Assembly: GCA_002011615.1 (NCBI GenBank)
Contig: MTOH01000011.1
Span: forward strand, 62,001-126,000
Origin: Candidatus Hydrothermus pacificus
Lineage (GTDB): Bacteria; Hydrothermota; Hydrothermia; Hydrothermales; Hydrothermaceae
Direction of reading: 5' to 3'
DNA: 64,000 nt
The notes below the pieces were generated by a model that was not told the origin of the DNA, did not search any database, and worked only from the letters and a program-made list of their open reading frames with translations. Below are positions 22,718-34,526 of this stretch, piece by piece. A program made the position numbers and the translations under genes. The stretch's first letter is position 1; every line of letters starts with the position of its first letter.

Positions 22718-24592
22718 TCAAAAGTCAATTCCGATACATTTTTCAGAATCAAGATAGGGTTCAACAGGTGGTCTCTGGTTCCATATTTTTCTATTCCCTG
22801 CAAATTTTTCAGAATACTTATCTTTTCCCTGTCCGTCAATGAATATGCCAATGCATTTTATATAATCCCTTAAACCACCCTTTCTCCCGATGTTTGCCCT
22901 TCCCAGTGTTATCTTGCCCTTTGTTCGGTATTCATCATTGCCTTCAAAATCTATAAATATTCCCATACCGTTTGCATTACCTGCACCAAGACTTAAATTG
23001 GGTGATTTGTGAAAATCGTCTCCTTTATAATCAATAAAGTATCCGAGTGAAAAATCATGACCTGCGCCCTGAGCCATGTTTATATCAGCAATAAACCTGT
23101 CATTTCCTGACGAATCTATTAAAACTCCGAGAGCAAAATGGGCACCTGCACCCTGAACATACCATATACCTTTATATTCGTCATCACCTTCAAAATCAGC
23201 AAGAAACCCTGAACCCATCCAGTAAGCACATCCCTGTCCAAAAACACCGCAGGAATACTTATCATTACCTTTCCCGTCAACTAAAAAACCAACTCCTCCT
23301 GCCATTGAATGACCATCAGTAAAATCTGCCCTTACTCCAAATCCTGTTCCCTGTGCAAGGCTCGTGTTGTGCTCTTTACTTTGAGAAGAAGGATACTTTA
23401 TTGTATCATCTCTTGCGATATATTTATCATCTCCCTCTTTATCAAGTAGAATTCCACACCCTTTAACAAACCCAAACCCCTGAACACACTGAAAGCCTTC
23501 ATAGTAATCGTTTCCTCTTAAATCTGCAAGAACTCCTGTTCCAAAAAGCCCTGCACCCTGTCCGTAGGAGTCACATATATATCTATCATCTCCCTCATAA
23601 TCCATTATTATCCCCTGACCAAAAATCCCTGTTCCTGCTCCAAATTTGTCTGCCAGATATTTATCATTTCCCTTTAAATCAATTAAAATTCCTGTCCCGC
23701 AAATACCTGTACCCGACCTCCCTTTATATATATCATTTCCCTTCAGGTCTATAACTATACTCAAAGGAAATTTTTTACCCGATGAACCTGCATCTATATA
23801 CTCATCATTGCCACCAGGCTCTATTATCAAAAGATAGGGCGGTGAATCGTAGTGGGTATTCTTATAATCCCCAAGAATTATTTTGCCATAATCAGTATTA
23901 ATTTCAAAAGAGGTCTTAAAATCCGCTTTCTTTAAAAATTCAATACCTTTTTGAAGGAAAAAACTTAAATCCATTGAAAGCCCTGAAATTATTTTAAAAT
24001 CAGTATTTTCTATAAGTTTCTCAATTTCAGGATTTGAAAGACCATCCTCACCCTCTTCTTCCATCCCTTTTAATATCTTTTCAATATGATTTTCAGAGAT
24101 ATGAGTTGCCCAGGTTTTTATGTCCTTCAAATAAATTTTTATACCCTTTAAAATTAAAATAAAACCCATTAACAACGTATCATTGATATTTTTATATTCT
24201 GACTGTGCATTAATAAATTTTAATAAATTATTGAAGTAATATATTAAATCTGTTTGTTTCAAAGAATCAATAAACCCCTTTACAGGTCTTTGAATAAGCC
24301 CCCTCCTTACCCCTTCATCAATTCTTGAAAAAGGGAAATATGACAATGCCCATAGAGAATCCGAGTAGTTTAAAATTCCCCTTGCCATTTCTCTTGTATA
24401 AGAAGGAACTTTAACAGGTGAAAATATAAGGTTATCAAAAATCTTTAACCTGAATTTACCGTGTCCATAAATTTCAAAACCTTCTTTATCAAGAGAAATC
24501 TCATTTAAAGGAATATTGAATTCCTTTGAAAGTTTTAAAAAATACTTCTCCTCAGGAAATATAAAACTCAAAATAAGAAAAAATTTAATCAC
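22718..24592 (-). CDS. Exported GND-repeat protein of unknown function
   Basis: A 624-residue protein that I do not recognise as a named family. Residues 1-15 form a signal peptide. Residues to about 250 are helical with no recognised motif. From about residue 258 to the end there are roughly twelve imperfect units of about 30 residues. Each has a D-x-x-G-[ND]-D-x-Y core followed by a glycine-rich [QG]GAG turn and a hydrophobic strand, for example IDLKGNDKYLADKFGAGTG. This looks like a beta-solenoid with an Asp-rich, possibly cation-binding, edge. The spacing differs from RTX nonapeptides. It follows fabG by 12 nt. Confidence 0.75.
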   Translation of the reverse strand: MIKFFLILSFIFPEEKYFLKLSKEFNIPLNEISLDKEGFEIYGHGKFRLKIFDNLIFSPVKVPSYTREMARGILNYSDSLWALSYFPFSRIDEGVRRGLIQRPVKGFIDSLKQTDLIYYFNNLLKFINAQSEYKNINDTLLMGFILILKGIKIYLKDIKTWATHISENHIEKILKGMEEEGEDGLSNPEIEKLIENTDFKIISGLSMDLSFFLQKGIEFLKKADFKTSFEINTDYGKIILGDYKNTHYDSPPYLLIIEPGGNDEYIDAGSSGKKFPLSIVIDLKGNDIYKGRSGTGICGTGILIDLKGNDKYLADKFGAGTGIFGQGIIMDYEGDDRYICDSYGQGAGLFGTGVLADLRGNDYYEGFQCVQGFGFVKGCGILLDKEGDDKYIARDDTIKYPSSQSKEHNTSLAQGTGFGVRADFTDGHSMAGGVGFLVDGKGNDKYSCGVFGQGCAYWMGSGFLADFEGDDEYKGIWYVQGAGAHFALGVLIDSSGNDRFIADINMAQGAGHDFSLGYFIDYKGDDFHKSPNLSLGAGNANGMGIFIDFEGNDEYRTKGKITLGRANIGRKGGLRDYIKCIGIFIDGQGKDKYSEKFAGNRKIWNQRPPVEPYLDSEKCIGIDF

Positions 24593-26347: not shown

Positions 26348-26376
26348 TTGAAATTTCTCTTAAAATCCTTTATAAT
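26348..26376 (+). promoter_or_regulatory. Strong predicted promoter of the DtxR-feoAB operon
   Basis: TTGAAA (26348-26353), a 17-nt spacer and a perfect TATAAT (26371-26376). The start point would be near 26383, leaving a leader of about 25 nt that is almost entirely occupied by the palindrome at 26390-26408. Confidence 0.8.
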
Positions 26377-26408: not shown

Positions 26409-26807
26409 ATGGAAACTTTAAGTCCCTCACTTGAGGATTATCTTGAGGCAATTTATATATTAAAAGAGAAAAAGGGATTTACAAGGGTTTCTGAAATAGC
26501 AGATTTTTTGAATGTAAAAATGCCTTCTGTAAACTCAGCTTTAAAAATTCTCGTGGAAAAAGGACTTGTGGTTCATGAAACTTATGGCTATGTCAGTCTT
26601 ACTGAGAAAGGCGAGAAGAAGGCTAAAAAAGTTTATTCAAGACATCTAATTTTAAAAAAATTTTTTAAAGATATTCTGGGTCTGGATGAAAAAAAAGCAG
26701 AAGAAGACGCCTGCAGGATAGAACACCATATAAGCCAGGAATCCCTTGAAAAACTTTTAAAATACATTAAAAAGATTATAAACAAAGATGTCACTATCTC
26801 AGGTTAA
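26409..26807 (+). CDS. DtxR/MntR-family metal-responsive repressor
   Basis: A 132-residue regulator. The N-terminal winged helix-turn-helix reads SLEDYLEAIYILKEKKGFTRVSEIADFLNVKMPSVNSALKILVEKGLV, the classical DtxR/MntR/IdeR DNA-binding pattern. It is followed by the dimerisation and metal region (KKFFKDILGLDEKKAEEDACRIEHHISQESLEKL), whose C-x-x-E-H-H supplies the usual Cys/Glu/His ligands. The C-terminal SH3-like domain of DtxR is missing, as in short MntR-type proteins. It is the first gene of the feoA-feoB operon and probably represses it when Fe(II) or Mn(II) is plentiful. It overlaps feoA by 20 nt. Confidence 0.92.
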   Translation: METLSPSLEDYLEAIYILKEKKGFTRVSEIADFLNVKMPSVNSALKILVEKGLVVHETYGYVSLTEKGEKKAKKVYSRHLILKKFFKDILGLDEKKAEEDACRIEHHISQESLEKLLKYIKKIINKDVTISG

Positions 26808-27009
26808 AAAAGGGAAAGTAAGAATTGCAGGATTTGCGGGGGGTAAAAATTTTCAAAAAAAAATGCTTGCCCTTGGAATCTTTGTGGGGGATATTGTTGA
26901 AGTAATCGCAAACAATTATCCCGGTCCTGTGATAATTGCCAAGAACAGTTTAAGAATAGGCATAGGATTTGGAATGGCAACAAAAATTCTTGTGGAAAAG
27001 ATTTCATAA
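26788..27009 (+). CDS. feoA: FeoA-type ferrous iron transport accessory protein
   Basis: A 73-residue SH3-like FeoA protein: SLSQVKKGKVRIAGFAGG, a GKNFQKKMLALGIFVGDIVEVIA turn, and a GPVIIAKNSLRIGIGFGMATKILV end. This is the typical full length of a stand-alone FeoA, which binds and modulates FeoB. It starts 20 nt inside the 3' end of the regulator gene and shares one base with the feoB ATG (TAATG), so the three are translationally coupled. Confidence 0.95.
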   Translation: MSLSQVKKGKVRIAGFAGGKNFQKKMLALGIFVGDIVEVIANNYPGPVIIAKNSLRIGIGFGMATKILVEKIS

Positions 27010-28985
27010 TGAAGAAAGTAGCAATTGCAGGAAATCCAAATTCAGGGAAATCAACAATATTTAACAATCTAACAGGCCTTTCTCAGAAAACAGGAAACTG
27101 GCCGGGTGTTACAGTTGAAAAAAGCGAGGGTGAATTCACTTATAATGGAGAAAAATTTTATGTTGTTGACCTTCCAGGAACCTATGGGCTCTCCACTTTT
27201 ACCATTGATGAAAAAATAGCAAGAGATTTTCTGGTGAAAGAAAAACCCGATGTTGTTGTAATTGTGGTTGATTCCTCAAATATTGAAAGACATTTTTATC
27301 TTGTTACTGAAATTCTTGAGATGGGTCATAATGTTGTAATTGATTTAAACATGATTGACCTGGCAGAGGAAAAGGGTGATTTTATTGATGAAAAAATGCT
27401 TTCAAAGATTTTAAAGGTTCCTGTTGTTAAAACAATTGCGAATAAAAACAAAGGGACAGAGGAACTAAAAAAATCGATTTACGAAGTTTCAAAAAAAGAA
27501 AAAAATGAGCCCTTAAAAATAAATTATGGAAGAGATATTGAAGAATTCATTGAATTTTTGAGAGATAAAGTCAATCTTCCTGAAAATTTTCCTGAAAGAT
27601 GGGCGTATTTAAAAATATTTTCAAAGGACGAAGAAATATTTGAATTTGTAAAAGATAAAGAGAAAGTAGATGAAAAAATAGACAGGATAGTTAAATCTCG
27701 CGGATTTCCTGACCCGGAAACTTTTATTGTAGAAAAAAAATACGGATTTATAAGAGGTGTTTTAAAGGAATGCATAAAAGAAAAAAGGAAACTGTGGAAA
27801 AGACTTGAAATAAGTGACAAGATTGATAGAGTTATAACAAATCCATGGGTGGGAATACCGCTGTTTTTAATCTTTATGTTAATTATTTTTGAAATTGTAT
27901 TTGGCATCGGTAATCCTCTGGCAGATTTAATAGACAGATTTATAGGTTTTTTAAATGAAAGTTTAAAAACTCTATTTGCCCGAATATTTCCGCACTTTTT
28001 AACATCCCTTTTAACTGATGGAATAATAAGTGGTGTTGGTTCTGTAATTGTTTTCCTGCCGAATATATTCCTGCTTTTCTTTCTAATCTCATTTATGGAA
28101 GACTCAGGATATATGGCAAGAGCAGCCTTTGTAATGGACAGGTTCATGCACTACATAGGTCTTCATGGAAAATCTTTTATTCCAATGATACTCGGTTTTG
28201 GATGCAATGTTCCTGCAATTCTTGCAACAAGAACTCTTGATTCAAAAAAAGATAGAATTTTAACGATAATGATTATACCTTTGATGTCATGTTCTGCAAG
28301 ACTCCCAATCTATATTCTATTTACAGGGGCTTTCTTTAAAAAATTTCAGGCACCGATTGTCTTTTCTCTTTATTTTACAGGAGTTTTCCTCGCCATTGTG
28401 GTTGCAAAAATCTTAAGCAGGACAGTATTTAAAAAAGAGGAATCCCCTCCCCTTATAATGGAACTACCACCTTATAAAAAGCCCGCAATAAGATGGAGCT
28501 TAAAACTCTCCTGGTTCAGAAGCAAATTGTTTCTGAGAAAAGCAGGAACAATAATATTCTCAGCCGTTGTGATTATATGGCTTTTATCGTCTCTTCCCCC
28601 GGGTGTAGAATATGCAAGTAAGGAATCAATCCTGGGCAAGATAGGTTCTTTTATTGCACCGATTTTTTCACCTGCAGGGTTTGGAAGATGGGAGATAGCA
28701 GTTGCTCTTTTAAGCGGAATTGTCGCAAAGGAAGTGGTGGTGGGAACATTGGGAGCAATTTTCGGAGAACAGGGGCTGATATCCTCCCTTCAAAGTATAT
28801 TTACCCCTTTATCGGCCTATGCCTTTTTGCTCATGTCTTTAATATACATACCCTGTGTTGCAACAATAACAGCAATCAAAAACGAAGCAGGAATAAAATA
28901 TCTTTTACTCACAATTCTATATACCTTCCTTCTGGGCTGGCTTCTTGCGGTAATATTTTATCAGATCGGAAGATTTTTTATTTAA
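27009..28985 (+). CDS. feoB: FeoB ferrous iron transporter
   Basis: A 658-residue Fe(II) transporter. The N-terminal G domain (about 1-170) has GNPNSGKST (8-16), NWPGVTVEK, VDLPGTYGLS (G3) and an N-x-x-D-like DLNMIDLA (G4). A linker and guanine-dissociation-inhibitor helical region follow, then the membrane domain from about residue 275. The latter has two gate repeats carrying the conserved Cys residues FGCNVPAI and LMSCSARLPIYILFTGAFF, and near the end a YIPCVATITAIKNE stretch. It imports ferrous iron through the inner membrane. An asparagine-synthase-like gene follows 5 nt after its stop. Confidence 0.97.
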   Translation: MKKVAIAGNPNSGKSTIFNNLTGLSQKTGNWPGVTVEKSEGEFTYNGEKFYVVDLPGTYGLSTFTIDEKIARDFLVKEKPDVVVIVVDSSNIERHFYLVTEILEMGHNVVIDLNMIDLAEEKGDFIDEKMLSKILKVPVVKTIANKNKGTEELKKSIYEVSKKEKNEPLKINYGRDIEEFIEFLRDKVNLPENFPERWAYLKIFSKDEEIFEFVKDKEKVDEKIDRIVKSRGFPDPETFIVEKKYGFIRGVLKECIKEKRKLWKRLEISDKIDRVITNPWVGIPLFLIFMLIIFEIVFGIGNPLADLIDRFIGFLNESLKTLFARIFPHFLTSLLTDGIISGVGSVIVFLPNIFLLFFLISFMEDSGYMARAAFVMDRFMHYIGLHGKSFIPMILGFGCNVPAILATRTLDSKKDRILTIMIIPLMSCSARLPIYILFTGAFFKKFQAPIVFSLYFTGVFLAIVVAKILSRTVFKKEESPPLIMELPPYKKPAIRWSLKLSWFRSKLFLRKAGTIIFSAVVIIWLLSSLPPGVEYASKESILGKIGSFIAPIFSPAGFGRWEIAVALLSGIVAKEVVVGTLGAIFGEQGLISSLQSIFTPLSAYAFLLMSLIYIPCVATITAIKNEAGIKYLLLTILYTFLLGWLLAVIFYQIGRFFI

Positions 28986-28990
28986 GTGAT

Positions 28991-30742
28991 ATGCCGGGTA
29001 TAACTCTGTTATTTACAGAAGATTCTAACACTTCAAATATAATTCTTTTTAGAGAAGAAACAAAATTTAAAAACTATTCCGCTAAAGTTCTCCTTAAAAA
29101 AGACAATTTTTTATTAACCGTTAATAAATATAAAGAATATCCTTTTATTTTTAAAAAATACAAAGACATTTTCTATTTTTTAGAAGGCAAAATTTATAAC
29201 AGGAATGAACCTGAAATTGAAAAATTTCTATATCAGATTTATTGTGATTTTATAGAAAACAAAAACTATGAAGAAAGGATTAAAAATTTTATACTTACGA
29301 CGGACGGTGAATTCTTAGCAGGTATATTTGAAAAGAATAATTCTCTAATCTTTAATGATTTTCTTGGCAGGTTGCCCTTTTACCTTTTTAAAGATAAAAA
29401 TAAATTTATACTATCCAGGGATATCTGGATAATAAGAAAATTTATAAATGTTCCTGAAATTGATATAAATTCTCTGATTGAATATCTTTTATTCATGTAT
29501 CCACTGGGAGAAAAGACTCTTTTAAAAAATGTTTCAAGACTTTTACCCGCAACCTGCATTGAATTCAAAAGGAATACTTTGAAAATTAAAAAATTATTTG
29601 AATGGAATTTTGAAGAAAAAGAAAATATTGATTTTAAATCAGGTGTCCAAAATCTTTACAGCTCATTTTTGAATGCACTGGAAAATAGAGTTCAAACCTT
29701 TAAAGATTATAAAATTGTGCTTTCTTTTAGTGGGGGTTTCGACTCAAGAGCGGTTTTTATGGGTTTAAAAAAAATAAATACTGAATTCCATCCTGTCACA
29801 TTTATTGACCCTGATAAAAAGCATCAGGAAGACTTTATAATTTCAAAGGAAATAAATAAAATAGCAGAAACAGAAACAAAATTTTTTGAAATTAAAGAGT
29901 TTAATCTGAAATCTATGACAGAATTGATAAAAATAAAACAGGGCTTAAACTATGCAGAGATGGGATTTATAATGGACTTTTCTGAGATGTTAAAAAAAGA
30001 ACTGGGTAATAATATTTTTTATATCACAGGAGATGGAGGTGATAAACTTCTACCCTACTTACTTCCCTCAAAAAAATTAAAAAGCATAGATGATTTATTT
30101 CAGTTTATAATAACAAAAAACAAAATATTTGAACCCTTTGAAATTGAAAGAATTACAGGAACAAATTTCAATAAAGTAAAAGAAAAAATTAAAGAAAAAA
30201 TTTCAGAGTATCCTGAAAACAATCTGAATTACAGATACATACATTTTTTAATTTATGAAAGATGCTTTAAATGGCTCTTTGAAGGTGAAGACAGAAACAG
30301 GTATTTTTTCTGGTCAGGAACCCCCTTTTATTCAATTGAGTTTTTTAAAACTGCCGTAAAGTTAAAAGATAACTACAAAAAGTATTACAGGTTGTATAGA
30401 GAATTTTTTAAATTATTGGATGGGGAAATAGCAGGAATCAGGAGAGCAGGATTTGATTACGGGATTTTTGACAGGAAAATCATTATAAGAGAATATTTAA
30501 AATACTTTGTCTTAAAATTTCCTTTTATTTTGAATTTCCTGGAGACCAAACACAGAAGAAAATCTTTTTATAGCCCTACTCAAAACCTTTATAATAAATT
30601 CACGGAAATTTTTGAAGAGAACGATATTGTGAAGGAAATTTTTAATAAAAAAGCATTAGAGGAAATGAAGGAAAATTTGAATAGAGAAAAATTTTTTACC
30701 CTCTTAACACTCTTTCTTTATTTTGATTATCTTCAGTGGTAA
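28991..30742 (+). CDS. Asparagine synthase-like protein without the glutaminase Cys
   Basis: A 583-residue protein of the AsnB superfamily. Residues 1-150 resemble the Ntn glutaminase fold (GEFLAGIFEKNNSLIFNDFLGRLPF), but the chain begins Met-Pro-Gly, so the Cys nucleophile of true glutamine-dependent enzymes is absent. The ATP-pyrophosphatase loop SFSGGFDS is at 245-252 and TGDGGDKLL completes the AMP-forming site. The frame is open upstream inside feoB; the ATG at 28991, 5 nt after the feoB stop, was taken as start. It probably adenylates a carboxylate for amide or macrocycle formation. True asparagine synthesis from ammonia is an alternative. Confidence 0.8.
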   Translation: MPGITLLFTEDSNTSNIILFREETKFKNYSAKVLLKKDNFLLTVNKYKEYPFIFKKYKDIFYFLEGKIYNRNEPEIEKFLYQIYCDFIENKNYEERIKNFILTTDGEFLAGIFEKNNSLIFNDFLGRLPFYLFKDKNKFILSRDIWIIRKFINVPEIDINSLIEYLLFMYPLGEKTLLKNVSRLLPATCIEFKRNTLKIKKLFEWNFEEKENIDFKSGVQNLYSSFLNALENRVQTFKDYKIVLSFSGGFDSRAVFMGLKKINTEFHPVTFIDPDKKHQEDFIISKEINKIAETETKFFEIKEFNLKSMTELIKIKQGLNYAEMGFIMDFSEMLKKELGNNIFYITGDGGDKLLPYLLPSKKLKSIDDLFQFIITKNKIFEPFEIERITGTNFNKVKEKIKEKISEYPENNLNYRYIHFLIYERCFKWLFEGEDRNRYFFWSGTPFYSIEFFKTAVKLKDNYKKYYRLYREFFKLLDGEIAGIRRAGFDYGIFDRKIIIREYLKYFVLKFPFILNFLETKHRRKSFYSPTQNLYNKFTEIFEENDIVKEIFNKKALEEMKENLNREKFFTLLTLFLYFDYLQW

Positions 30743-30751
30743 CCTTATAAT
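30723..30751 (+). promoter_or_regulatory. Predicted leaderless promoter of the radical SAM gene
   Basis: TTGATT (30723-30728), a 17-nt spacer and a perfect TATAAT (30746-30751). The ATG at 30758 comes just 6 nt later, which is the expected transcription start position. The -35 box lies inside the 3' end of the asparagine-synthase-like gene. Confidence 0.7.
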
Positions 30752-30757
30752 TTTTAT

Positions 30758-31828
30758 ATGTTTGTTTATAAAGAATTCTTAAGGTTGAAAAACAATCTAC
30801 CTGCTGTTGCTCACATTACCCTCAATGTAAAATGTATGCATAAATGTAAAACATGCGGATACTGGAGAATTTATGAAAAGGTAAAAGACCGCGGCATGAA
30901 AAAAGAAGAAATATTTAAAATATGTGATGATTTGATTTCTTTTGGAATAAAAAGGTTTTTATTTGTCGATACAGACCCCCTTTTAAGAAAAGACCTTCCT
31001 GAAATAATAAAATATTTAAAAAACAAAGATGCTCATGTTCAGATTGTCACAACAGGAATGAATTTAAATAAAATTTTCGCTGAAAACTTAATTTCTTCGG
31101 GAGTAGATGTCATAAAATTCTCTATAGATGGACACAACGGTTTGAACGATTTTATAAGAGGAATAAAAGGAGCCTATAAAAAATCGGTACAGGGAATAAA
31201 AACTTTAAAAGAATTAAGAAGAAATAAAAACAAACCAAAAATTTATGTGATGACGGTTGTTTCAAAACTAAATATAAATGAAATTGAGAAAATTAAAGAA
31301 AAGATTTATTATGATACAGGAGGGGTTGATAATCATTATTTTGGGCCGGTCCTTGAAATAAAAAAAGATGTTTTTGAAAAAACAAAATGGAAGGGCAAAA
31401 ATGTCGCAAGTTTAAATTTAATTCCTTATGAAAAATCCTATTCACTTAATTATCATGATATAAAAAAACTGCTAAAAATAAACAAAGATAAAGGAACTTA
31501 TTTCTTATTCGGCAGGATAATAAAACTACTTGATGCAATTTTATATATAAAAAGAAGAAAATGCCCTTCCTTTCATCAGGTTCACATAGATGTTGATGGA
31601 AACTTAATTCCCTGCTCCTTTTTACCGGGAATAAAACTGGGAAATTTAAAAGAGAATTCAATTAAAGAACTATGGAGAAAGAGAGAACACTCAAAATTTA
31701 TAAATTATTTGAGGAAAAAAGCATTTCCTGTGTGCTTTGAAATATGCTGGAAAAGAAGTATATTTAATGTCGCTTCTCAAACTGCAAGTTTAAGAGAGCT
31801 GATTTTTAAAAGATTCGGGAAATTCTAA
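30758..31828 (+). CDS. Radical SAM enzyme with SPASM-like C-terminal cysteines
   Basis: A 356-residue radical SAM protein. The [4Fe-4S] motif CxxxCxxC is C26-C30-C33 (NVKCMHKCKTCGYW), very close to the N-terminus. A TIM-barrel core follows (RGIKGAYKKSVQGIKTLKEL). The C-terminal part has CPSFHQVHIDVDGNLIPCSFL, the SPASM/Twitch-type pattern that binds an auxiliary cluster, then a CFEICWKR ending. Such enzymes modify peptides (sactipeptides, PQQ, mycofactocin), nucleosides or lipids. The substrate cannot be told. It lies 15 nt after the asparagine-synthase-like gene but has its own promoter. The stop overlaps the convergent membrane-protein gene by 4 nt. Confidence 0.88.
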   Translation: MFVYKEFLRLKNNLPAVAHITLNVKCMHKCKTCGYWRIYEKVKDRGMKKEEIFKICDDLISFGIKRFLFVDTDPLLRKDLPEIIKYLKNKDAHVQIVTTGMNLNKIFAENLISSGVDVIKFSIDGHNGLNDFIRGIKGAYKKSVQGIKTLKELRRNKNKPKIYVMTVVSKLNINEIEKIKEKIYYDTGGVDNHYFGPVLEIKKDVFEKTKWKGKNVASLNLIPYEKSYSLNYHDIKKLLKINKDKGTYFLFGRIIKLLDAILYIKRRKCPSFHQVHIDVDGNLIPCSFLPGIKLGNLKENSIKELWRKREHSKFINYLRKKAFPVCFEICWKRSIFNVASQTASLRELIFKRFGKF

Positions 31829-32256
31829 TCAAAAAATCTTTTTGTAAAGATAAGGGGTAATATAAAAACCAGGAAAATTATTGAGTTTAAAATTACATTT
31901 ATATAAACTCTGAAATATACTGAAAATCCTGTATCAATTAAAAACCATATCAAAAGTCCTAAAAACATACACATCCATACCCATTTTTCTTTTTTATTAA
32001 AAGCATACCTTGCAATGAATACTATAAAAATTCCCCATCCTGCAATTGTTGCTCCCCATGCTCCATAAACCCATCTCTGAAAATTCTTTGTAGCTGAAAT
32101 AATGTTTTCCTTAACCCAGAAAGTTTTATTTATATTTACATCAAACAATTTAAAAACAGGTGTTCCACTGAAAAATGCCATAAAAATTCCGAATATGGTT
32201 ATTATAATTCCCATTAAAAGTATCCATCTTCTCCAGAAATTAAAATTGTCCTTCAT
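31825..32256 (-). CDS. Small four-helix membrane protein
   Basis: A 143-residue protein with about four transmembrane helices (FWRRWILLMGIIITIFGIF, then AWGATIAGWGIFIVFIA, MCMFLGLLIWFLI and VILNSIIFLVFILPLI). The function is not recognised. The frame is open to 32286, but an AGGGAGG Shine-Dalgarno lies 5 nt before the second ATG at 32256 and too close to the first (32259). I therefore chose 32256, which also avoids overlap with the LuxC-like gene. It is the last gene of the LuxE-LuxC unit and could help anchor those enzymes, by inference. Confidence 0.7.
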   Translation of the reverse strand: MKDNFNFWRRWILLMGIIITIFGIFMAFFSGTPVFKLFDVNINKTFWVKENIISATKNFQRWVYGAWGATIAGWGIFIVFIARYAFNKKEKWVWMCMFLGLLIWFLIDTGFSVYFRVYINVILNSIIFLVFILPLIFTKRFFD

Positions 32257-32267
32257 CATCGCCTCCC

Positions 32268-33464
32268 TTATTTTTCGATAACGCAAAATTTTAAAAACTG
32301 CTTTATTCCGAAAGAACCCTTATTTGCAAAAAATAATGGAGGAAATTGAAGCCTCCCCCACTCTGTAATTCTTATACAGGAAGTTTTTTGGGCAACAGAC
32401 TCAATGATTTTTTTATCAAAAGATGAAAAGGCAAATGCCTGCAGAAAATTTTTAAAAGGCATAAGAGCTTCAAGAATATTGTCCGGTTTTTTATAATATA
32501 CTATCTGAATTATTCCTGGAAAGAAAAGGTCAATTATCTTCGGAGTTTTAATAAATTTAAAGTCACGGTCTTTTAAAATTAAATCTTTTTCAAACAAAAA
32601 TGTGTCAATCACCTGTCTTCTCCTTATTCTTTCATTTAAATCAATCTCCTTTGCTTTGAATTTCTTTTTCAGTTTTTTAATATTTTTATCAATAATCCCT
32701 GTTAATTCCTCGTAATCAATACCTTTTTGAATAAATATCACAAAGGGGCTCATACATCCCCTGTGGTTGTAAAGAAAAATATCAAGGGCGACCCTGTTTA
32801 ATATTCTTTCATTGAAATCTTTTCTTTTTATAAACCCTGCACCGAACATTGTGGGATAATCAATCACCCTTTTCTCTCCTGCAATTCTCTTTATGTTTCT
32901 TATTGTATCCGTGCTTCCCTGAACAACAACTATTTCAGCATCTTTAACAAAATCTTTTAATCTATCTTCATCATCTCCTCTAAATACCTCTATTTCAATA
33001 AAATTTGAGAGTTTTCTAAAGTTTTTTGTAATATACTTTTTGAATTCTTTAAAAAATATATGCATTTTATAGGAAGGCTTTGCATATATACATGTCTTTG
33101 ATAAAAGCGCAGGAAATATTATCTGGGTTTCAATACCCGGGATGTTTCCGGAAAATATTGCGTGTATAAAATCAGGAGAAAATGCTTTTAAATAAATGTT
33201 CTTTTCAATTTTTACCCATTCATCAAGAATTTTCTCATTATAAATCTCATATCTAAGGAGTTTTTTTAAGCTCTTTTTATTTTTATAGGGCAAAAATGCA
33301 TTTTTAATTCCTGTTTTAACCATCTCTTCAGAATAATCAGTGTTTTTTGAAATTCTCTCTGCTATGTAGTCCACATATTTTGATTTCGGGAAATTTGCGG
33401 ATATTTCTGAAATAAAATTAATTATCTGTTTGACCGGAAGTTTTTTTAATTCTTTACTTTTCAT
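32268..33464 (-). CDS. LuxC-like acyl-CoA reductase
   Basis: A 398-residue protein of the LuxC acyl-CoA reductase family, which reduces a thioester-bound acyl chain to an aldehyde with NADPH. The nucleophile region NHRGCMSPFVIF (C237) matches the family's Q-x-x-C-x-S-P motif. The N-terminal half has the aldehyde-dehydrogenase-like HAIFSGNIPGIETQIIFPALL and AKPSYKM stretches, and AEIVVVQGSTDTI follows. The gene begins directly after the LuxE-like stop (TAG then ATG). LuxC and LuxE form the fatty acid reductase of luminous bacteria; no luxA or luxB is visible here, so a non-luminous aldehyde-producing role is likely. Confidence 0.85.
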   Translation of the reverse strand: MKSKELKKLPVKQIINFISEISANFPKSKYVDYIAERISKNTDYSEEMVKTGIKNAFLPYKNKKSLKKLLRYEIYNEKILDEWVKIEKNIYLKAFSPDFIHAIFSGNIPGIETQIIFPALLSKTCIYAKPSYKMHIFFKEFKKYITKNFRKLSNFIEIEVFRGDDEDRLKDFVKDAEIVVVQGSTDTIRNIKRIAGEKRVIDYPTMFGAGFIKRKDFNERILNRVALDIFLYNHRGCMSPFVIFIQKGIDYEELTGIIDKNIKKLKKKFKAKEIDLNERIRRRQVIDTFLFEKDLILKDRDFKFIKTPKIIDLFFPGIIQIVYYKKPDNILEALMPFKNFLQAFAFSSFDKKIIESVAQKTSCIRITEWGRLQFPPLFFANKGSFGIKQFLKFCVIEK

Positions 33465-34526
33465 CTATAAACCGCTATTTTTCAAGTTTAACTCAGAGAT
33501 AAGTGAACATCCCCTTAAGTCAAAACCCTGAACCCTTCCTTTTAAAACAAAACCCTCCCCTCTTTTAATCCCTGTATCTTCTGTTAAAATGGCAATGCAG
33601 GCATCAAAGTTTGCAAGGTCATAGTGAATAAGAACACCCTCTTTTTTGTCCTCAAAAGTATCAGGGTCAACTATTCTCCATTTTAAAAAGGGAAGGGATA
33701 ATTTTATTCTCTCGGTATTTTTGTTTTCAAAATAAAACTTTAAATTCGCATCGTAGTAATGAGAAATTAACTCACACATCCCATACTCATTTACTATAAA
33801 TTTTTCATCAACACCCAATAATTCACTATAACTTTTATATAAATCTCTTTGCTGGACAACAACTTTTAACCCCTTGAATCCTCCTGTATCAAGGATTCTT
33901 GAGCCTTCTGGAAGTTTTATTCTAATTTTATTTTCTTTTAAATACTGAATCAGGTGATAAAGGGAAATTGATGTTCCCAGAATTGCAACCGGCTCTTTTT
34001 CTTTCTTTGTTTTTTTTAAAAATTCATGGAAAAGATATTTACCGTTTTTATAAAAATAGGCACTCTCTTTTTTCCCGAATTTCTCAAATATTCTTTTATA
34101 CATATAGGCAAGGGATGATTGTTTAAATTCCTGAAAATCAGTAAAAAACACAAAAATTTTTATTTTATCCATATCAGGTAAGAAAAATTTTTTAAAACTT
34201 TTATAAATTACATTATCATAAATTTCAGGATAAAATACATATCTTTTACTTCTCAGTCCTTCTGTTGTTCCACTTGAAACAAAAACATATTCTGGTTTTT
34301 TAGTTTCAAAAGCCGTCAACTCAAAGTATTTAAATGCTCTTTGAGGACACGGAGGTATTTGCTTAAAGTTTCTTATATTTCCGGGTGTTATTCCTTTTTT
34401 AATACAAAAATTTTTATAGAATCTATTTCTATTATATTGATATTCAAATATTTCCAGCGCAATAGCATTGAACTCTTTCTCTGACAGGTCCTCTTTTTCC
34501 AAAGTCTCTTTTATTTTCCTTATCAT
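33465..34526 (-). CDS. LuxE-like acyl-protein synthetase
   Basis: A 353-residue protein of the LuxE acyl-protein synthetase family. The adenylate-forming signature SSGTTEG is at residues 84-90, and the N-terminal IPPCPQRAFKYFEL fits the family pattern. A later YGMCELISHYYDANL resembles the family's YGMTE-like motif. It would activate a fatty acid as an acyl-AMP and hold it as a thioester for LuxC-type reduction. It is the first gene of a three-gene minus-strand unit (luxE-like, luxC-like, membrane protein). The 358-nt region upstream has no recognised coding gene. Confidence 0.85.
   Translation of the reverse strand: MIRKIKETLEKEDLSEKEFNAIALEIFEYQYNRNRFYKNFCIKKGITPGNIRNFKQIPPCPQRAFKYFELTAFETKKPEYVFVSSGTTEGLRSKRYVFYPEIYDNVIYKSFKKFFLPDMDKIKIFVFFTDFQEFKQSSLAYMYKRIFEKFGKKESAYFYKNGKYLFHEFLKKTKKEKEPVAILGTSISLYHLIQYLKENKIRIKLPEGSRILDTGGFKGLKVVVQQRDLYKSYSELLGVDEKFIVNEYGMCELISHYYDANLKFYFENKNTERIKLSLPFLKWRIVDPDTFEDKKEGVLIHYDLANFDACIAILTEDTGIKRGEGFVLKGRVQGFDLRGCSLISELNLKNSGL

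Follow-up and report, generated by a model that had tools for sequence, protein, structure and literature searches.

Beta-lactam synthetase and CarA are AsnB-related proteins with a dead N-terminal domain, and both form amides in an ATP-driven manner. In glycan biosynthesis, WbpS, a member of TIGR03108 (the XrtA/EPS amidotransferase family), converts uronic acids to uronamides, and PGN_1234, a WbpS-type gene of P. gingivalis, adjoins wzx (PMC7468200; also PMC6025236). Moreover, the listed genes of an S-layer glycan cluster include wsfA, an asparagine synthase homologue (PMC2943079), and McjC-type lasso cyclases have no working glutaminase (PMC4979651). Literature searches on AsnB in WOR-3 and on AsnB in glycan amidation found nothing. 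Here, an AsnB-like gene and its radical SAM neighbor were analyzed in a 64,000-nucleotide stretch of DNA, referred to below as the window, from Candidatus Hydrothermus pacificus, a bacterium of candidate division WOR-3. Judged from its residues, the AsnB-like protein appears to be a glutaminase-dead, AsnB-like enzyme.

Locus layout and the two encoded proteins

The genes of the locus are summarized in Table 1. The regulator gene, feoA, and feoB were tightly packed, with overlaps or short gaps. As the feoB stop ends at 28985, the gap to the AsnB-like gene is 5 nt, and a gap of 15 nt separates the latter from the radical SAM gene. Because of these overlaps and short gaps, the five genes from the regulator to the radical SAM gene likely form one transcript. 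A promoter-like TTGAAA-17-TATAAT sequence was found at 26348–26376 with an 11/12 match, the total of such sites being at chance level, and an Rfam search of the region gave no match. The start codons of the AsnB-like ORF, ATGCCGGGT, read MPG, and the frame is open upstream as far as 28688. Relatives in WOR-3, Zixibacteria, and haloarchaea also begin with MPG, which makes it very probable that translation starts there.

Table 1. Positions in the window of the AsnB-like gene, the radical SAM gene, and the genes around them
Feature	Position	Strand	Remarks
MntR/DtxR-like metal regulator	26409..26807	+	gene 1 of likely transcript
feoA-like gene (short feoB partner)	26788..27009	+	assigned by position and sequence; syntenic remnant in G002
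feoB, ferrous iron transporter	27009..28985	+	
AsnB-like protein	28991..30742	+	583 aa, MPG start, glutaminase site lost, PP-loop SGGFDS kept, motif EGEDRNRYFFWSGTPFYS
Radical SAM protein, half SPASM motif (C-x11-G-x4-C plus CxxxC)	30758..31828	+	356 aa
Convergent three-gene unit: small membrane protein, LuxC-like reductase, LuxE-like synthetase	31825..34526	-	neighbor outside the pair

On alignment to two canonical MCG proteins, the window protein had P, K, E, and N where these have the glutamine-site Cys, Arg, Asn, and Asp. The Cys nucleophile after Met is absent, with Pro at position 2, and this loss goes together with the three further replacements in the glutamine site. The ATP loop SFSGGFDS was located at residues 245–252 (SGGFDS at 247–252). 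Where canonical AsnB has the Asp-Glu of GGDE, the window protein reads Asp-Lys, and its C-terminal motif, EGEDRNRYFFWSxTPFYS, is unlike its counterpart in canonical AsnB. In a profile-profile comparison, residues 56–358 matched canonical AsnB with a probability of 99.5 and an E-value of 3.5e-22, and an AlphaFold2 model built from three sequences had a pLDDT of 36.

In the radical SAM protein, the CxxxCxxC cysteines are at residues 26, 30, and 33. Pfam recognized Radical_SAM (1.6e-20) and SPASM (5.5e-09), and the best NCBIfam match was W_rSAM_matur (TIGR04317; 85 of 380 bits). The seven-Cys SPASM motif was incomplete, with just C269, C286, C326, and C330 found. These observations bear out an earlier note on this DNA, which had described an AsnB-like chain starting Met-Pro-Gly without the N-terminal Cys, its intact ATP loop, its start 5 nt past feoB, and a radical SAM neighbor with CxxxCxxC at 26–33 and C-terminal cysteines. 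The same note had reported no precursor peptide, and indeed the gaps of 5 and 15 nt are too short for a precursor ORF, and downstream the radical SAM gene runs into the convergent gene. No PqqD/RRE domain was found beside or fused to the radical SAM protein. The genome's sole PqqD match, over the Pfam cut-off, lies on contig C4 (L148:5148-7474, about 103.1–105.5 kb) with an NTP_transf_5 nucleotidyltransferase, an HprK-like protein, and a 60-aa ORF with RRKLLKIGVWAVPVIITFSSRKVWAG. This cassette looks like an uncharacterized HprK/PqqD peptide system.

Across five consecutive genes on both strands (28991–34526), the GC content was 27–30% vs. the 34% average, while GC3 was nearly normal (z −0.4 to −1.2). 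The low GC may therefore merely reflect the amino-acid make-up, and it was ruled out as evidence of foreign origin. The minus-strand LuxE-LuxC-like pair and a gene for a 153-aa membrane protein converge on the radical SAM gene. LuxC/LuxE was considered as a part of the system and rejected, because LuxE occurs throughout the order: each of the four genomes has it elsewhere, without the AsnB or radical SAM gene. Farther upstream, at 22718–24592, the window encodes a 624-aa protein with many repeated Gly/Asp units (e.g., LKGNDKY), for which no Pfam or NCBIfam match was found.

Relatives of the two genes and their surroundings

The genome of the window (2.06 Mb, 19 contigs) contains a single copy of the AsnB-like gene. 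Among 147 WOR-3 genomes, the close clade was found in two, namely, this genome and the same-order genome G004, and the next matches were far weaker. Outside WOR-3, relatives were detected in one Zixibacterium (L025) and on six haloarchaeal plasmids, with matches covering 78–96% of the query; the haloarchaeal search covered plasmids, and these six make up its sample. Among the haloarchaeal relatives is WP_224338536.1 of Haloprofundus halobius. A scan of viral contigs found no relatives. In a maximum-likelihood tree, the nine members formed one branch with 100/100 support, which excluded the canonical MCG proteins as well as the MPG-type proteins found at greater distance in WOR-3; this tree comprised 18 rows with several long branches flagged, and the fork setting off the nine sits at its midpoint root. 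The clade profile matched solved asparagine synthetases (best 4e-11), and its matches to beta-lactam synthetase and CarA were weak (2e-4 and 3e-3, respectively).

The loss of glutamine-site residues extends through the clade. None of the nine members shows the Cys, the Asn is replaced by Glu and the Arg is lost in all nine, and a single member retains the Asp. Pro2 was not shown in two haloarchaeal rows, of which one begins MVG, and the other, as extracted, leaves the MPG start uncovered. The PP-loop SGGxDS is kept in 9/9 members. The Asp of the GDGGD motif is missing in two of the nine, so that the clade members may not all share one substrate or activity.

All six haloarchaeal copies are located among surface-glycan genes, with flippases, glycosyltransferases, DUF354 proteins, a sugar-transfer ATP-grasp protein, acetyltransferases, and sulfatase-like or alkaline-phosphatase-family genes as neighbors. 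An annotated radical SAM gene was beside none of the six, the gene table being incomplete. On the Halorientalis plasmid among them, a second, divergent AsnB-like protein (MVG start; L060:2959-4851) adjoins a sulfatase-like gene. In WOR-3, a Polysacc_synt flippase and glycosyltransferases adjoin the more distant MPG-type proteins. The three bacterial clade members were found outside glycan loci, near feoB and the radical SAM gene (window), PASTA/ybgC genes (G004), and groEL (L025). Moreover, all nine members matched TIGR03108 weakly, the score of the window protein being 31 of 816.9 bits, far below the curated cut-off.

Full-length orthologues of the radical SAM protein (28–35% identical), in which all seven cysteines are invariant, are confined to the WOR-3 family f27, in surroundings with neither AsnB nor a clear glycan locus. 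Within the 147 WOR-3 genomes over which co-occurrence was assessed, both genes were present in one, that of the window, and in no other, an outcome that the earlier note had named as a refutation of its pathway. The radical SAM gene is probably an unrelated neighbor of the AsnB-like gene.

The link to iron was evaluated using the same-order genome G002, in which fabG (75% identical) adjoins an mntR-feoA-feoB operon in decay, with a PLP-dependent enzyme coming after it. At that locus (L114:4911-6568), feoB is in pieces with stops, mntR was matched as two pieces in different frames, and the PLP-dependent enzyme next to them is unrelated. No trace of the AsnB/radical SAM pair was found in the 12-kb stretch around the decayed operon. 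Since this feo locus has no pair, the pair is not established as a long-standing member of the feo operon; the difference may reflect either gain in the window's lineage or loss in G002. The iron link of the pair is confined to the likely shared feo transcript, and in the case of the window, adjacency to feoAB alone is no evidence for an iron-linked pathway. Of the earlier note, the glutaminase-dead AsnB-like enzyme beside a radical SAM/SPASM enzyme, probably on the feo transcript, is upheld; a joint peptide-modification pathway tied to iron supply is not supported, and the linkage to feo is absent in G002.

Weighing the explanations

As the best relatives are found in sugar-coat gene clusters of haloarchaea, the AsnB-like enzyme probably amidates a sugar acid. 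In the best explanation, to which we give about an even chance, the protein is an amide-forming synthetase without glutamine hydrolysis, likely acting on a surface-glycan carboxylate, and an orphan behind feoAB. By analogy with its family, the PP-loop synthetase domain would activate a carboxylate as acyl-AMP with ATP, free ammonia or another amine would attack the acyl-AMP, and the N-terminal domain would persist as a scaffold. The company of the relatives suggests that the most likely substrate would be a carboxylate of a surface glycan, e.g., a uronic acid, like that of WbpS-type enzymes. In the window's lineage, the gene would be transcribed as an orphan behind feoAB, and the radical SAM gene would be an unrelated neighbor or a lineage-specific partner. 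Points against this explanation are the bacterial members outside glycan loci, the TIGR03108 matches far below the cut-off, the lasso cyclase model, which slightly outscores TIGR03108 for the window protein, the two members without the GDGGD Asp, and the structure model, whose pLDDT of 36 was too low for use. A further-reaching version is quite unlikely; here, the clade would be a new branch of glycan amide synthetases, mostly with an N-terminal Pro, exchanged between haloarchaea and bacteria and taking the amine from a non-glutamine source (e.g., an amino acid or amino sugar joined onto a sugar carboxylate), and in the WOR-3 lineage it would work with a radical SAM enzyme under metal control. 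If the glycan amide reading is true, a well-supported, uncharacterized AsnB-like clade no longer uses glutamine and may instead draw on ammonia or another amine to form amides on surface sugars of archaea and bacteria. This reading can be tested, since the haloarchaeal members are encoded on plasmids of strains in culture.

The protein could also be an ammonia-dependent asparagine synthetase or a small-metabolite amide synthetase with no tie to glycans, which is considered unlikely. The sequence family common to asparagine synthetase, beta-lactam synthetase, and CarA is consistent with such a role, as are the bacterial clade members outside glycan loci; however, the Asp-Lys in place of Asp-Glu in GGDE, the departure of the C-terminal motif from the canonical one, and the glycan-locus position of every haloarchaeal relative found argue against it. 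Joint action of the two window enzymes on a lineage-specific surface sugar or lipid, with iron from the same operon, is improbable as well. It would agree with the likely single transcript and with distant radical SAM relatives in three WOR-3 genomes (G051, G043, and G140) that, judged by sequence reading, lie near glycosyltransferase or nucleotide-sugar genes. However, the f27 orthologues lie amid other genes, and the pairing occurs once.

Very unlikely is a RiPP pathway in which the AsnB-like enzyme would close an amide or isopeptide bond, the radical SAM enzyme would add a second modification, and the precursor would be encoded elsewhere. The best NCBIfam match of the AsnB-like protein was the lasso cyclase model NF033535 (1.4e-9), with 37 of 525 bits, under the curated cut-off; McjC-type cyclases likewise have no working glutaminase, and the PqqD/HprK-like/nucleotidyltransferase cassette with its 60-aa ORF exists on contig C4. 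However, the pair is not conserved, G004 carries an AsnB orthologue and no PqqD match, the pair leaves no space for a precursor, and the haloarchaeal relatives are in glycan loci, so that the joint peptide-modification pathway of the earlier note could not be upheld. Moreover, neither a B protein (transglutaminase-like) nor a precursor was found adjoining the AsnB-like gene, and the genome's sole Transglut_core3 match is partial and lies in a 488-aa Transglut_core-family protein on another contig. Without a conserved pairing, a precursor, or a B protein, a RiPP/lasso pathway was not retained as the best reading, and a split RiPP pathway is unlikely, with nothing in its favor.

Comparison with known systems

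Both domains of asparagine synthetase B align with the window protein, but the glutamine-site residues and the Glu of GGDE are replaced in the latter. Beta-lactam synthetase and CarA differ in that their match is weak and no carbapenem or clavam genes were noticed near the window gene. McjC and NF033535 resemble the window protein in being AsnB-like without a working glutaminase and with the PP-loop kept, whereas the window locus has no B protein, precursor, or conserved RiPP context. In the case of the radical SAM/SPASM proteins (TIGR04317), the window enzyme shares CxxxCxxC and C-x11-G-x4-C but is without the CxxCx5C half of the seven-Cys SPASM motif. Compared with WbpS, WbqG, and PGN_1234 (TIGR03108), the window protein has lost the glutamine-site residues and its gene lies outside a glycan locus, yet the AsnB two-domain layout is shared, as is the glycan-locus company in the relatives of the window protein.
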